Assembly: GCA_027021085.1 (NCBI GenBank) | Contig: JALUVB010000031.1 | Coordinates: 1-12,298 of the forward strand | Length of the DNA stretch: 12,298 nt | Origin: a bacterium | Lineage (GTDB): Bacteria; CAIJMQ01; JAADFP01 | Reading direction: 5' to 3' | In this document: piece by piece, positions 6,377 through 12,298 of the stretch | How the letters are laid out: every line of letters begins with the position of its first letter | Numbering within the stretch: the stretch's first letter is position 1 | The notes under the pieces: model-generated | Seen by the model: only the letters and a program-made list of their open reading frames with translations | What the model was told of the DNA's origin: nothing | The model's database searches: none | Made by a program: the position numbers and the translations under genes

Positions 6377-7021
6377 TTAGATGACCCTTACATAAATGCA
6401 AGAGGCTAATTCCTTATCCACGGCAAACTTGCTTTTTCCCACCTGGAATACATAGGAGGGAAACCTCTGCAGGAGAACAATTTCTGTCATGGGTAAGGCG
6501 CCCATAGCGATTAATTTTTGCAGGATATTACGGTCCTGTGTCTGCAGGTAGGAAATTCGCGCTTTCCTGTTTATTTCCAACTCTGTTAAGGGCATAATCA
6601 GCTTCTCCGGTTTTCTCCTGGCATCTTTGCAGCAAGGCCCTTCCGGGATAGGTTTTCCATGTGGACAGGTGCGGGGATGCCCCAGGAGAGTGCAGATATT
6701 ATCATCCAACCCCTTATGGAGAAAATGCTCAAATTTGCAGCTTGTTTCATGCACCAATTTTTTCTTGCAGTCAAGGATATCTACCAACAGCCTTTCTGCC
6801 AGACGATGGCGTCGGACACAACTTCTTGCTTCTGCCTCGCCCTTCTCAGTTAGTTGTATCTGATTTTGCGGAGGTTTAATTTCTATGTACCCCAGGCGGG
6901 CTAAATTTTTTATCGCTTCGTCGTCTTTTAATATGCTTACCTTGCATGTCCCTTTTTTCTCTTCTACCACTTCTATCCAGAGGGCCTCCAGTATCTCTTC
7001 TGCCCTATCACTAAGCGTCAT
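6377..7021 (-). CDS. DtxR/MntR-family metal-dependent regulator with FeoA-like C-terminal domain
   Basis: The start at 7021 gives 214 aa and has GGAG 8 bases upstream. A longer frame to 7138 merely runs through the upstream zinc-ribbon gene. Residues 1-60 form a winged-helix domain. Residues 65-130 form the metal-binding and dimerisation domain: 'RRHRLAERLL' with His72 and Glu76, and 'HETSCKFEHFLHKGLDD' with Cys95, Glu98 and His99 correspond to the DtxR ligands. 'TCPHGKPIPEGPCC' follows, a segment common in this family. From about residue 143 to the end is an SH3-like FeoA-type domain. Such proteins repress iron or manganese genes when loaded with divalent metal. The gene is in the feo operon and overlaps the zinc-ribbon gene by 11 bp. 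Whether the cognate metal is Fe or Mn cannot be decided. Confidence 0.92.
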   Translation of the reverse strand: MTLSDRAEEILEALWIEVVEEKKGTCKVSILKDDEAIKNLARLGYIEIKPPQNQIQLTEKGEAEARSCVRRHRLAERLLVDILDCKKKLVHETSCKFEHFLHKGLDDNICTLLGHPRTCPHGKPIPEGPCCKDARRKPEKLIMPLTELEINRKARISYLQTQDRNILQKLIAMGALPMTEIVLLQRFPSYVFQVGKSKFAVDKELASCIYVRVI

Positions 7022-7193
7022 CTTCTCTTCTCCTTTTCTTTTTAAGTTTTTTAATAAATTCCGGCTCTTTCGGCACCTCGTACCCGCAGTTGGGACATTT
7101 AACCAGATTGCAGCCTTTTGCCAGGGGGCACCCTGCACACGCCTTCTGGGCGTGCTCCGGGTTGAATTCCATGCCGCATAGGGGACACTTCAT
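7011..7193 (-). CDS. Small seven-cysteine zinc-ribbon protein in the feo operon
   Basis: A 60-aa protein. Its ATG overlaps the feoB stop as ATGA, and its end overlaps the start of the DtxR-type gene by 11 bp. That strongly supports it being a real, co-translated gene. Cysteines lie at 3, 6, 19, 22, 28, 33 and 36: 'CPLCG' and 'CPNCGYE' knuckles flank a 'CAGCPLAKGC' segment. The C-terminus is a lysine/arginine-rich tail ('KKLKKKRRR'). The pattern suggests zinc binding, and possibly iron sensing or an Fe-S site through the central cysteines. It could be an accessory to FeoB, comparable in position but not in sequence to FeoC. The function is not established; the name describes only what is visible. 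Confidence 0.85.
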   Translation of the reverse strand: MKCPLCGMEFNPEHAQKACAGCPLAKGCNLVKCPNCGYEVPKEPEFIKKLKKKRRREDDA

Positions 7194-9121
7194 AAGCTCA
7201 CCCCCAGGGTAGTTAGTATTAGATTCACTATTCCGCCCACCAGGAAGGCAAAGGGAAAGATAAACCCTGCCATAAGCAGGGCAGTCTTTAATCCACGTTC
7301 TTTCACGGTCATGGAAAACTGGGCAATACAGGGAATAAAGAGAGTCATGGTTATCACCGCTACCAGGAGGGGAACCCCGCTGAGCACTCCTGAACTTTTC
7401 AAATCAAAGAGCCCGGCTGCTCCGAAGTCTCTGCGGAAAAAGCCGAATAAGAAGGCTACGGCCGATTCCTTTGGTAGCCCTATCCACTGCACTGGATATG
7501 CCATTAAACGCAGTAATAAATCAAAAAGTTTGGTTACTTTGCCTATCCAGATAAACACACTGGCCATAATAAAAAGCGGAAATACTTCTTTTAGATACCA
7601 TTCCACCCTGGTGTAGGTTTTGGTCAACACATTGGAGAGCTTGGGCAGTCTCAAAGGAGGAACTTCCATATAAAATATGGGGTTTTCTCCCGGCATTAAC
7701 CTGGAAGTTAAGTATCCAATGAGAACAAATATGGAAGCTGTTACTCCCACCCAGATGGCAAACAAGGTTGCATTACCGGATAAAAGCGCCAGAATTACAC
7801 CTAATTGGGCTGAACAGGGGATAGCCAGAGCCAGAAGGAAGGAAGCGATGATACGTTCCCTTTTGGTTTCCAGGGTACGAGTTACCATGACTGCCATGGT
7901 GTCACATCCAAATCCCAGGACAATTGGTATTACTGCTCTCCCATTAAGCCCGATTTTCTTAAACATCCTATCGATAAGCATGGCCAGGCGGGGAAGGTAG
8001 CCTGTGTCCTCAATAATGGAAAAGGCAATAAAGAAGGTGGCAACGATAGGCAGAATTATTGCTACTGCATATCTTATTCCCAGGGTGATAATTCCATACT
8101 CGTTTACAAATAAATCCTGCACCACTTTCCAGGGGATAAAAGAAGTAACAATCTTGGTTACAAAAGGATTGATATATTGACCGAATATGGTTTTTTCCAG
8201 GAAATCCACCGATATCTGCGCCCCAAATACCCCTACAAATTCGTAAAGCAGGTAAATTATCAGCAAAAATATAGGGAATCCGGTAAAAGGATTCATGGTA
8301 AGCCGACTCAGTATTTCCTGGAAGGTAACCTTAGCTTCTTTCAGCTTTACTACCCCATCTACAATTTCTCTTACTTTATGTTGTCTTTCCAGAGCCACTT
8401 CATAGGAAATAGGATTCACGTAGCGGTCCCTGGCTTTTTCCAGAACCTGGTTAATGGAAAAGAAGTTGTTTTTTTCTCTTTCTTTTACCATTTCCCTTAT
8501 CTCTTCGTCTTCCTGCAGTAGTAAAAGCGCTACCATCCGTTTGGATAGAGGATAAGAAGAAGTCAGGAGACTCTCGATTTTTTCTATCTCATCTTTTAGA
8601 GAGTAGGAGATGAAATTCTCGTAACTGCGCATAGCTTGTGAGAAAGAGAGGATTCTCTTTTTCAACTCCTCTATCCCCTCACCTGTTATGGATACTGCTC
8701 CTACCACGGGTATACCCAACTCTTTCTCCAGTAAATTCCTGTTGATAATGATGCCTTCTTGCTCTGCTTCATCCATAATATTGAGAACAAGAATAGTGGG
8801 AAAACCCGATTCCAGCAATTGTATGGTAAGCGGCAACATCCTCTCCAGGTTCTTGGCATCTATTACGTGAATTACCAGGTCTGGTTTTTCTTCCAGCAAA
8901 ATCCTGCGGGCAACCCTTTCCTCCTCGGTAATGGGAAGAAGGGAATACATGCCCGGCGTATCAATTATCTGGCAGGCTATTTCACCTATTTGCGCTTTGC
9001 CCCGGGATACTTCCACCGTGGTCCCCGGGTAATTGGATACGGTAACATATTTTTTCGTAAGAGCATTGAAGAGAACGCTTTTCCCTACGTTGGGGCTTCC
9101 GACCAGTACAATCTTTTTCAT
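7190..9121 (-). CDS. feoB: Ferrous iron transport protein B
   Basis: A 643-aa protein of normal FeoB architecture. The N-terminal G domain shows G1 'GSPNVGKS' (8-15), a switch region with 'YPGTT' (31-35), G3 'DTPG' (54-57), G4 'NIMD' (114-117) and G5 'SITGEG' (144-149). A helical linker follows to about residue 275, then a polytopic core. The core includes 'IPIVLGFGCDTMAVM' (398-412), 'AIPCSAQLGVI' (433-443) and 'FFRRDFGAAGLF' (561-572), the two-fold gate motifs of this family. It takes Fe2+ into the cytoplasm at the inner membrane, driven or gated by nucleotide hydrolysis. No separate feoA gene is present; a FeoA-like domain exists only on the DtxR-type protein. The start has only GGA close to the ATG and follows the Fur-box-like operator by 16 bp. 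Confidence 0.97.
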   Translation of the reverse strand: MKKIVLVGSPNVGKSVLFNALTKKYVTVSNYPGTTVEVSRGKAQIGEIACQIIDTPGMYSLLPITEEERVARRILLEEKPDLVIHVIDAKNLERMLPLTIQLLESGFPTILVLNIMDEAEQEGIIINRNLLEKELGIPVVGAVSITGEGIEELKKRILSFSQAMRSYENFISYSLKDEIEKIESLLTSSYPLSKRMVALLLLQEDEEIREMVKEREKNNFFSINQVLEKARDRYVNPISYEVALERQHKVREIVDGVVKLKEAKVTFQEILSRLTMNPFTGFPIFLLIIYLLYEFVGVFGAQISVDFLEKTIFGQYINPFVTKIVTSFIPWKVVQDLFVNEYGIITLGIRYAVAIILPIVATFFIAFSIIEDTGYLPRLAMLIDRMFKKIGLNGRAVIPIVLGFGCDTMAVMVTRTLETKRERIIASFLLALAIPCSAQLGVILALLSGNATLFAIWVGVTASIFVLIGYLTSRLMPGENPIFYMEVPPLRLPKLSNVLTKTYTRVEWYLKEVFPLFIMASVFIWIGKVTKLFDLLLRLMAYPVQWIGLPKESAVAFLFGFFRRDFGAAGLFDLKSSGVLSGVPLLVAVITMTLFIPCIAQFSMTVKERGLKTALLMAGFIFPFAFLVGGIVNLILTTLGVSL

Positions 9122-9137
9122 TCCGACAATATCAAGC

Positions 9138-9156
9138 GAAATTGAATTTCAATTTC
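9138..9156. promoter_or_regulatory. Fur-box-like operator before feoB
   Basis: GAAATTGAATTTCAATTTC is a perfect 9-1-9 inverted repeat, the same geometry as the classical Fur box (GATAATGAT A ATCATTATC). It lies in the 40-bp gap between the Fur-family gene and feoB. On the minus strand the repeat is extended by a further GAAATT-like hexamer. A weak promoter, TTGAAA then an 18-bp spacer then TGATAT, may overlap it. Binding by the adjacent Fur protein is inferred; it would block an internal feoB promoter when iron is sufficient. Confidence 0.75.
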
Positions 9157-9161
9157 AATTA

Positions 9162-9620
9162 TTAAGCAAAAACATTCCCTTCCCTATCGCTGATAGCTCT
9201 GCATTTTTTGCAAACGCCGAATATCTCCAGCTTATGTCTTTTGGGTAAAAACTCAAATTTTTCACAGAGGGCATTCTGGAGCTTTTCTATGTTAACATCA
9301 ACCACCTCAATAAACCTGCCGCATTCTATGCAGACAAGGTGATCGTGGTGCGGATGCCCGTATTTATGTTCGAACCTTATTTTCTTATCTCCCAACTCCA
9401 CTTCCTTGGCAATACCAGCTGCACAGAGCAGTTTTAAAGTTCTAAAAACAGTAGCCTGTCCGATGTCACTGTTTCTTTTTTTTATGAGGTTATATAACTC
9501 TTCCACGGTAAGATGCTGGTTAGTTTTCAGGAATACCTGTAAAATCTTCTCTCTCTGCGGGGTCAAACGCAGATTCTTTTTCCTGAGAAATTCAACGAAT
9601 ATGTCTTCTTCCTCTCTCAT
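9162..9620 (-). CDS. fur: Fur-family metal-responsive transcriptional regulator
   Basis: A 152-aa protein from the ATG at 9620, with GGAG 10 bases upstream. A longer frame to 9683 would run through the predicted promoter and is rejected. The N-terminal winged helix spans about residues 1-80 ('RLTPQREKILQVF', 'GQATVFRTLKLL'). The dimerisation domain has the histidine cluster 'HKYGHPHHDHLVC' (85-97), regulatory-metal ligands in this family. The structural zinc cysteines are C97/C100 and C137/C140. It is the first gene of the operon, 40 bp before feoB, with a palindrome of Fur-box geometry between them. Fur itself is the best guess, but PerR- or Zur-like specificity cannot be excluded from sequence alone; linkage to feoB favours iron. 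Confidence 0.9.
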   Translation of the reverse strand: MREEEDIFVEFLRKKNLRLTPQREKILQVFLKTNQHLTVEELYNLIKKRNSDIGQATVFRTLKLLCAAGIAKEVELGDKKIRFEHKYGHPHHDHLVCIECGRFIEVVDVNIEKLQNALCEKFEFLPKRHKLEIFGVCKKCRAISDREGNVFA

Positions 9621-9639
9621 AATATTACTTCTCCGATTT

Positions 9640-9683: not shown

Positions 9684-9773
9684 AAGAAAAGAACGTTCCG
9701 CACAGTACCCCCCTCGCTACTCACTACTAACAGAGAGTTACCCGTTGTCAGTCCTGAGTTGCCAGTTCTCTGT

Positions 9774-9790
9774 CCCGGCATGTGTCGGGG
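9774..9790. repeat. Hairpin 'cccggcatgtgtcgggg', copy 1
   Basis: CCCGGCA and TGTCGGG can pair (one G·T) around a tiny loop. The flanks 'tgtcccggc' and 'ggggcacctatt' recur at 10107-10131 around a second hairpin of the same type, so these are diverged copies of one element. Confidence 0.55.
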
Positions 9791-9966
9791 CACCTATTTC
9801 CCCATATTAGACTTTAGACCTCAGACTTTAGACATTAGGCGAGAAAGACACATGATACGGGGGACCAATTCACTATTTACTGTTTACTATCTCTTCCCCT
9901 CCACTACCCGCTACTCACTACTATTCACTATCCTCCCGGTCTATAGTCCAAGAGTGGTGAGTTGCT

Positions 9967-9982
9967 CCCGATGTCCATCGGG
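9967..9982. repeat. Hairpin CCCGATG-TC-CATCGGG
   Basis: A perfect 7-bp inverted repeat with a 2-base loop, placed between two GAGTTG heptamer tracts. It appears to be one more of the small hairpins interspersed in the mosaic. There is no T-run after it, so it is not an intrinsic terminator. Confidence 0.55.
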
Positions 9983-10025
9983 ATGAGTTGCGAGTTCCAC
10001 CTATCCCCCCACCTGTATCCTGGAA

Positions 10026-10060
10026 GAGTTGTGAGTTGCCAGTTGTGAGTTGCGAGTTCC
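10026..10060. repeat. GAGTTGY heptamer array (inverted relative of CTCRCTA array)
   Basis: Exactly five 7-bp units: GAGTTGT, GAGTTGC, CAGTTGT, GAGTTGC, GAGTTCC. Its reverse complement reads CTCGCAA, CTCACAA, CTGGCAA, CTCACAA, CTC. This parallels, unit by unit, the array at 10384-10411 (CTCGCTA, CTCACTA, CCCGCTA, CTCACTA), with A replaced by T at position 6 of each unit. Confidence 0.8.
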
Positions 10061-10108
10061 GCCTATTCCCCCGCCTATATACGGGGAGAGTTGCGAGTTA
10101 TTAGTTGT

Positions 10109-10125
10109 CCCGGCGCATGCCGGGG
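10109..10125. repeat. Hairpin CCCGGC-GCAT-GCCGGG, copy 2
   Basis: A perfect 6-bp stem with the 4-base loop GCAT, flanked by the same 'gtcccggc … ggggcacctatt' context as 9774-9790. It has no poly-T tail and sits inside heptamer repeats. Confidence 0.55.
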
Positions 10126-10210
10126 CACCTATTCTCCCGCCTGTGTTCCGCATTCTGCATCCCCTCTCCTCATCTAAAGTCTCAAGTCTATAGTCTAAAG
10201 TCTTGCGTGG

Positions 10211-10230
10211 ATGCCTGCTTTCGCAGGCAT
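10211..10230. repeat. REP-like hairpin ATGCCTGC-TTTC-GCAGGCAT, copy 1
   Basis: A perfect 8-bp stem with a 4-base loop, within the longer conserved 'gtggatgcctg…caggcatgacag' sequence. A second copy at 12039-12058 has a T-A closing pair where this one has C-G, so the stem is kept while the sequence changes. Similar short elements are frequent in bacterial genomes and give spurious 'MPAFAGMT'-like translations. The arms cannot serve as a Rho-independent terminator, as no T-run follows. Confidence 0.75.
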
Positions 10231-10276
10231 GACAGGTAGGCTGGTCTACATTCTGCAAGAGTTACCAGGATACCAA

Positions 10277-10374
10277 TTCACTGTTCACTGCTTACTGTTC
10301 ACTGTTTACTATTCACTGTTCACTATTTACTGCTTCCCCAGTCTAACGTCTAAGGGCTATAGTCTAAAGTCTAA
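10277..10374. repeat. Fourteen in-phase heptamers, two families joined
   Basis: Eight YTYACTR units (10277-10332), then CTTCCCC, then AGTCTAA, CGTCTAA, GGGCTAT, AGTCTAA and AGTCTAA, occupy exactly 98 bp with no break in the 7-bp register. The same junction (TTTCCCC, AGTCTAA, CGTCTAA, GGTCTAT) recurs at 12265-12292. Confidence 0.85.
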
Positions 10375-10383
10375 TATGCCCCC

Positions 10384-10411
10384 CTCGCTACTCACTACCC
10401 GCTACTCACTA
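10384..10411. repeat. CTCRCTA heptamer array
   Basis: Four 7-bp units (CTCGCTA, CTCACTA, CCCGCTA, CTCACTA) immediately upstream of the DUF362 gene leader. Related units occur at 9713-9726, 9907-9920 and 12201-12228. Confidence 0.75.
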
Positions 10412-10430
10412 CTGGGCATTAATATTTTGT

Positions 10431-11961: not shown

Positions 11962-12038
11962 ACTAACCTCCTTGTTTTGCAGTTAAATTACCTAAAAAAG
12001 CTTGTTCATCCCAACCTATTGTCTAAAGTAGTATGTGG

Positions 12039-12058
12039 ATGCCTGTTTCCACAGGCAT
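12039..12058. repeat. REP-like hairpin ATGCCTGT-TTCC-ACAGGCAT, copy 2
   Basis: A perfect 8-bp stem with a 4-base loop in the same 'gtctaaagt…gtggatgcctg…caggcatgacag' context as copy 1 at 10211-10230. The closing base pair is changed from C-G to T-A on both arms. It sits about 80 bp upstream of the flavoprotein gene start. Confidence 0.75.
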
Positions 12059-12157
12059 GACAGTTGGACCGGTCTTGTATTGCGGATTCACACTTTGCTT
12101 GCCATCTCTGCTTATTATCCCGTTCTCCTATCCTTTCTCTTACTCGCTTATTCACAA

Positions 12158-12298
12158 CTTACTGCTTACTATTTACTGTTTACTATTTACTACCCTTCCC
12201 CTCGCTACCCACTACTATCTACCCGCTACTTACTGGTTCACTATTCACTGTTTACTGTTCACTATTTCCCCAGTCTAACGTCTAAGGTCTATAGTCTA
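12158..12298. repeat. Second heptamer mosaic block, running to window edge
   Basis: Five YT(T)ACTR units (12158-12192), an 8-bp pyrimidine spacer, five CTCRCTA-like units (12201-12235), one extra G, then TTCACTA, TTCACTG, TTTACTG, TTCACTA, TTTCCCC, AGTCTAA, CGTCTAA, GGTCTAT and a partial AGTCTA to base 12298. It repeats the module order of 10277-10374. The stretch 11962-12298 otherwise holds only the flavoprotein gene leader and the hairpin at 12039-12058. Confidence 0.85.

Follow-up and report, generated by a model that had tools for sequence, protein, structure and literature searches.

According to statements quoted in PMC4679880 and PMC4692102, heptanucleotides are, in many bacteria, the long repeats of greatest abundance, and the polymerase is proposed to have a 7-nt footprint. 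TAACTGA direct repeats occur in Beggiatoaceae and in Microcystis, the latter with several heptamers intermixed (PMC4679880), while GGGAATC and GGGGAYT repeats are present in Xanthomonas and Nostoc (PMC4692102, where Calothrix heptanucleotides are also cited). Two Xanthomonas species have most of their heptamer repeats in the same intergenic intervals, with extensive variation in length and sequence (PMC4692102). The GTAG- and CGTC-tagged palindromic repeats (REPs) described in BMC Genomics in 2013 include dRS3 of Neisseria and RPE-6 of Rickettsia, and among them are CGTC REPs without a dedicated transposase (PMC3733652).

The window analysed here, a stretch of DNA of 12,298 nucleotides, is contig C31 of a 1.93-Mb draft genome (G000; 307 contigs, 93.9% complete), the host being a Caldisericota-like MAG. 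Its closest named relative is the MAG "Caldisericota bacterium isolate M_MaxBin.041", which belongs to the same genus and provides the sister genome (G001). Both MAGs are fragmented, contigs frequently ending within the repeats described below, and genome-wide statements are based on targeted loci together with contigs C1–C92.

At nucleotides 10277–10374 one heptamer family gives way to another, and this junction belongs, probably (at roughly 0.7), to a modular repeat mosaic dispersed over intergenic sites, of which it is one copy. The modules are the heptamer families A (YTYACTR), B (RGTCTAW), C (KAGTTGY) and D (CTACYCR), an 8/9-bp module E (ACCAGGATTACCAAGATACC) and REP hairpins of the CGTC type. 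Like bacterial heptanucleotide SSRs (PMC4679880, PMC4692102) the mosaic contains intergenic tandem arrays of period 7, and its turnover between G000 and G001, with sites retained and contents varying, is similar to that of the Xanthomonas heptamers (PMC4692102). Unlike those SSRs it has at least four degenerate families ordered with REPs and the 8/9-bp module in dispersed blocks, and identical neighbours are avoided, not enriched. The dominance of period 7 and the mixing of heptamers within arrays are thus already known (PMC4679880, PMC4692102); no earlier description was found of an ordered multi-family mosaic with REPs, of its turnover between sister species or of neighbour avoidance, and a literature search on the heptamer words yielded nothing relevant.

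The repeat cluster of the window

The A-type array at 10277–10332 (plus strand; TRF, sequence) has eight units, namely TTCACTG, TTCACTG, CTTACTG, TTCACTG, TTTACTA, TTCACTG, TTCACTA and TTTACTG. These are followed by CTTCCCC (10333–10339, plus strand) and by a B-type array of five units (10340–10374, plus strand; TRF, sequence), AGTCTAA, CGTCTAA, GGGCTAT, AGTCTAA and AGTCTAA. The 14 consecutive heptamers reported in the earlier note are therefore exact in the sequence. The same family junction is indeed present again at 12237–12298 on the plus strand, where nine heptamers (TTCACTA, TTCACTG, TTTACTG, TTCACTA, TTTCCCC, AGTCTAA, CGTCTAA, GGTCTAT and a final AGTCTA) run to the contig end. BLAST gave 89% identity to the first junction over 63 bp, and the two are copies of one dispersed block rather than two independent events. 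Because CTTCCCC is a spacer that belongs to neither the A nor the B family, and is represented elsewhere by TATCTCCC, TATTTTCCC, TATCCTCCCC and others (junction comparison), the statement that register is kept across unrelated families depends partly on the unit boundaries chosen.

Lag-7 identity was 0.45 at 9690–10420 and 0.43 at 12000–12298, as against 0.26 in the remaining window. The first of these regions contains, on the plus strand, a D-type array fragment CGCTACTCACTACTAAC (9711–9730; sequence) and a C-type array GAGTTAC/CAGTTCT, recorded by TRF as a 21-bp repeat (9735–9776). A short palindrome without strand, CCCGGCATGTGTCGGG, adjoins the linker CACCTATTTCCCC (9774–9789; sequence), and a related sequence, CCCGGCGCATGCCGGG, near 10112–10130 folds as a hairpin. 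A B-type array in reverse, TTAGACTTTAGAC (9805–9838, minus strand; TRF), precedes four plus-strand elements: an A-type array (9868–9890; TRF, pattern match), a D-type array and then one A unit (9902–9930; sequence), C-type arrays with CACCTATCCCCC linkers and a 62-bp duplication (9955–10109; TRF period 62 at 9984–10108), and a B-type array, TCTAAAG (10173–10203; TRF). Between the last of these and the junction lie a CGTC-1-type REP hairpin on the minus strand, TGTC-ATGCCTGC-GAAA-GCAGGCAT-CCA (10208–10234; assigned by fold and the published definition, folding −14.3 kcal/mol, z −4.4), and a plus-strand fragment of module E, TTACCAGGATACCAA (10261–10275; sequence), the full module being found at other loci. 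A D-type array, CTCGCTACTCACTACCCGCTACTCACTA, follows the junction at 10384–10413 (plus strand; TRF, pattern match). The second region holds another REP-type hairpin, GGATGCCTGTTTCCACAGGCATGACAG (12035–12062, minus strand; sequence, and a BLAST copy of the element at 10208), and plus-strand A-type (12148–12191; TRF) and D-type (12203–12233; sequence) arrays ahead of the second junction.

The segment 9600–12298 gave zero matches in Rfam, even at E values up to 1. RNA folding of the A and B arrays revealed less structure than in shuffles (z +1.3), and by this measure the arrays were rejected as a structured RNA. Fur lies on one side of the cluster and a divergent DUF362 ferredoxin-type gene on the other, and the cluster adjoins iron-metabolism genes at 6377–9626 which specify a FeoA-domain/DtxR-like repressor, FeoB and Fur.

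Organization and distribution of the mosaic

The sequence 10200–10400 has 96 BLAST matches in its own genome, 12236–12298 being among them. When array loci were oriented, a recurring order emerged, in which D (CTACTCGCTACCCG) is followed by A (TTCACTGTTTACTR), a short pyrimidine spacer and B (AGTCTACAGTCTAAAG..AAAAT). Located 3′ of B is either D again or the hairpin CCTGGATGCCTGCTTTCGCAGGCATGACAGG, with module E (ACCAGGATTACCAAGATACC) and another A array after it. C (GAGTTGTGAGTTG) comes after B, and has linkers and hairpins of its own. An order such as D, A, B, REP, E, A, B, D is seen across loci with a single orientation per locus, and orientation was uniform in 66 of the 71 clusters having at least two arrays. 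As in other heptanucleotide repeats the location is intergenic, 93/95 clusters lying outside ORFs. A repeat-blind sample of 388 kb contained 31 clusters, which scales to approximately 155 intergenic sites in the genome.

In 392 kb of contigs picked regardless of repeats, the period was 7, 14 or 21 in 66/98 tandem arrays; period 7 dominates, as the earlier note had anticipated, and other periods are not as common. That all the families in the window have this period is correct for the four heptamer families and not for module E of the same loci, with its 8/9-bp units. The note was also right in rejecting independent microsatellites, as the 96 matches and the recurring module order demonstrate, though the reason differs from phase, since the arrays are parts of copied, shared blocks. 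AGT or ACT is present in each of the four heptamer families (AGTGAAC, AGTAGCG, AGTTGTG, AGTCTAA), as it is in TAACTGA of Beggiatoaceae, possibly by chance.

Phase was examined for every junction type by measuring between adjoining arrays, from the final conserved core of the first to the initial core of the second. The A-to-B distances were 10 (1 copy), 11 (19), 12 (26) and 13 (5) bases, with 18, 20, 27, 28, 33 and 42 also represented. The window junctions fall in the 12-base class, and the 11-base class (spacer TATCTCCC), one base out of register, is nearly as frequent. Among same-type junction pairs of unequal length, the difference was a multiple of 7 in 358/2,517 (14.2%) in G000, the chance value being 14.3%, and in 40/258 (15.5%) in G001. 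The sole locked type was B-to-C, in phase in 12/12 cases at distances of 7, 14, 21 and 28, which is expected because one seamless junction varies in unit number. The proposal that phase is kept across family junctions thus fails genome-wide, where phase modulo 7 is random, and with it the argument from shared period and phase to a single 7-bp generating process. The register at 10277–10374 would then reflect the descent of one junction and not an active 7-bp process, and since register is not kept at family junctions across the genome, no special 7-bp copying machine is needed.

The REP hairpins comprise an 8-bp stem starting with AT, a 4-nt loop and a CCA tail, with a CGTC or TGTC tag at one end in 45/51, in agreement with the published definition of CGTC-1 REPs; tag, stem, loop, tail and the lack of a dedicated transposase are common to both (PMC3733652). 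Here the hairpins are one module between heptamer arrays, whereas most published REPs are without other repeats, and the published CGTC families belong to five phyla, Caldisericota not among them (PMC3733652). A second GC-rich hairpin, GCAGGCCTGCCCGCCCTCCGGGAGCAGGCGGGCATGACA, is inserted in the 3′ part of some REP hairpins (L035, L044, L052). The strand of the GNRA hairpin relative to that of the array, opposite versus same, was 30:17 in G000 and 6:11 in G001, and hence inconsistent between the species.

Two Y1 transposase matches were detected in G000, the longer on C45 and a second, partial one on C298; none was detected in G001. The C45 gene, examined as a possible dedicated transposase, specifies a protein of 226 amino acids and is flanked by hairpins TTACACCCCGGGGGTGTAA that are unrelated to the mosaic REPs. 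A RAYT as mobiliser of the mosaic was rejected for this gene, bounded as it is by its own hairpins. The REPIN/RAYT system, as outlined in PMC3116915, likewise consists of short dispersed intergenic palindromes, at times in inverted pairs; in contrast to it, the Y1 gene on C45 is flanked by hairpins of a different kind. This Y1/RAYT-like gene (L084, approximately 560–1370), with TTACACCCCGGGGGTGTAA hairpins on both sides, is apparently a separate REPtron-like element, and adjoins sequence with weak Pif1-like and WYL-domain matches.

Outside the genus, three perfect units of the A word were present in 19 of 288 genomes (scrambled word, 3), of the B word in 8/288 and of the D word in 5/288; A and B occurred together in only two of these genomes and A and D in two. 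A search of 84,980 named species with the exact A-to-B junction pattern recovered, apart from the sister Caldisericota MAG, only one stretch from Methylococcaceae, which is without arrays, lies inside a gene and is apparently a chance match. A horizontally acquired composite was rejected on this basis. Related heptamer words thus recur in distant bacteria, and the mosaic is genus-specific as far as searched. In unrelated bacteria, B-word arrays were also seen as inverted pairs with a T run (AGACCTTAGAC...GTCTAAAGTCTTTTTT; L229 in G237 and L224 in G176), resembling intrinsic terminators made of heptamers.

Unit variation and alternative explanations

The cores of the units are 97–100% conserved and two to three positions are free to vary. 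Such near-invariant cores beside free positions are what would be expected if a sequence-reading protein or an RNA-level function (7-bp-spaced binding, translation stops) conserved both the cores and the step of 7; jointly these functional readings, which include the putative 7-bp-reading protein of the earlier note, are unlikely. Reverse-strand stops in all three frames were found in 97–100% of A, B and D arrays in G000 and 80–100% in G001. Array orientation is biased with respect to co-directional flanking genes (20:8 in G000, P 0.036; 21:4 in G001, P 0.0009), such that the stop-bearing reverse strand is sense to co-directional neighbours in 20/28 and 21/25 cases, respectively. The stop content, however, follows from the cores used for unit detection, a stop is present on a given strand in 41% of random AT-rich heptamers, divergent gene pairs (12/52) are not avoided although stops would be useless there, and family C does not fit; for these reasons a stop-codon function is kept as a minority reading. 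The orientation bias could also reflect the direction of replication, and no protein that binds the arrays was identified.

Slippage of the polymerase, independent or ongoing and with a preference for steps of 7 nt, would make and extend each array. It accords with the dominance of period 7, with the reported abundance of heptanucleotides and the proposed 7-nt polymerase footprint, and with pure tandem runs such as those of TTTACTG in other lineages. Against it are the recurrence of the same family-to-family junctions at many loci, and the make-up of the arrays. Under a position-controlled null, in which the composition of each unit position was kept, identical adjacent units numbered 60 versus 131.6 expected in G000 (845 pairs) and 11 versus 30.4 in G001 (253 pairs), and runs of three identical units were absent from both. 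Neighbour avoidance was evident in every family tested and in both species, with counts that are not fully independent because paralogous arrays share ancestry. Since slippage growth predicts identical neighbours, which are here at about half the expected number, it is disfavoured, and template slippage as the generator of the present-day arrays, one of the mechanisms named in the earlier note, is unsupported and rather improbable; it may still have been the first origin of the arrays. With a tandem period of 7 and no runs of identical units, the arrays are a degenerate variant and not a classical SSR. A periodicity of 21 bp (two helical turns) was considered and rejected, the lag-3 enrichment seen in a simple shuffle being mostly gone under the position-controlled null.

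An assembly artefact, whereby short-read assembly created or shuffled the arrays, might be suspected from contigs that often end inside them, as this window does; it is very improbable, given that the same modules and neighbour avoidance appear in the separate sister MAG, many arrays are well away from contig ends and have intact genes on either side, and arrays of 28–56 bp are short enough for read-through. A retro-type, terminal-transferase-like or telomerase-like copier adding heptamers in register can be dismissed as hardly credible, as it has in its favour only the shared period and two window junctions that are copies of each other, while junction phase is random and RVT_1 was matched in none of five genomes of the class (G000–G004, own included; controls 3/14 matched), the 93.9% completeness of G000 leaving a small opening.

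Turnover and the block-copying model

At the window locus the flanks align to G001 with 82–84% identity. Of the 16 array sites with both flanks aligned, most carry repeats in G000 and G001 alike, while in G001 at least two are empty or almost so. Arrays of G000 score 0–111 bits, mostly 40–55, against their true G001 orthologs, and unrelated G001 arrays score about equally, whereas the best G000 paralogs score 102–293 bits. The intergenic sites have thus been retained and their content homogenised within each genome, a pattern of concerted turnover. At one near-empty ortholog, 303 bp of G000 (L045, 1231–1533) correspond to 54 bp of G001 (L128, 15631–15684), with repetitive edges that hide any target-site duplication of the kind expected for a transposable element (MITE). 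The G000 array at L045 ends directly at TTTTTTTGACA, which together with a TATAAT-like box further on resembles a promoter. G001 also has an extra heptamer family, AAACCCTAAACACTAAATAAATCC, missing from the window and resembling the plant telomere word CCCTAAA (L121, L146, L135); it occupies sites which in G000 carry A, B, C or D arrays.

We suggest that blocks of several modules are copied between loci. The simplest route would be ordinary homologous recombination, or gene conversion, among the dispersed copies, and this would homogenise the arrays within a genome. Slippage would mainly delete perfect 7-bp neighbours, so that the surviving arrays would be imperfect, their cores conserved and their variants alternating. 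As a whole this model is given the same probability as the mosaic itself, the copying step being inferred from sequence comparison; no target-site duplication, donor or enzyme for it was identified. Selection for binding or for stop codons could also account for the invariant cores, and block copying within one genus leaves unexplained the same-word heptamer arrays of unrelated phyla. A wider and decidedly speculative reading, improbable on present evidence, would have the degenerate cores as a "vocabulary" recognised in distant bacteria, a host factor reading 7-bp-spaced words that contain AGT/TAG or sense-strand all-frame stops, with block copying and the loss of perfect neighbours keeping imperfect, alternating arrays at chosen intergenic sites.

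Heptamer repeats are usually ascribed to slippage, and a common register at a repeat junction is, on its own, no evidence for a 7-bp machine. In the two genomes studied here the arrays stand at long-retained intergenic sites, blocks turn over within the genome and perfect neighbours are avoided, and with these genomes the contributions of slippage loss and block copying become testable.
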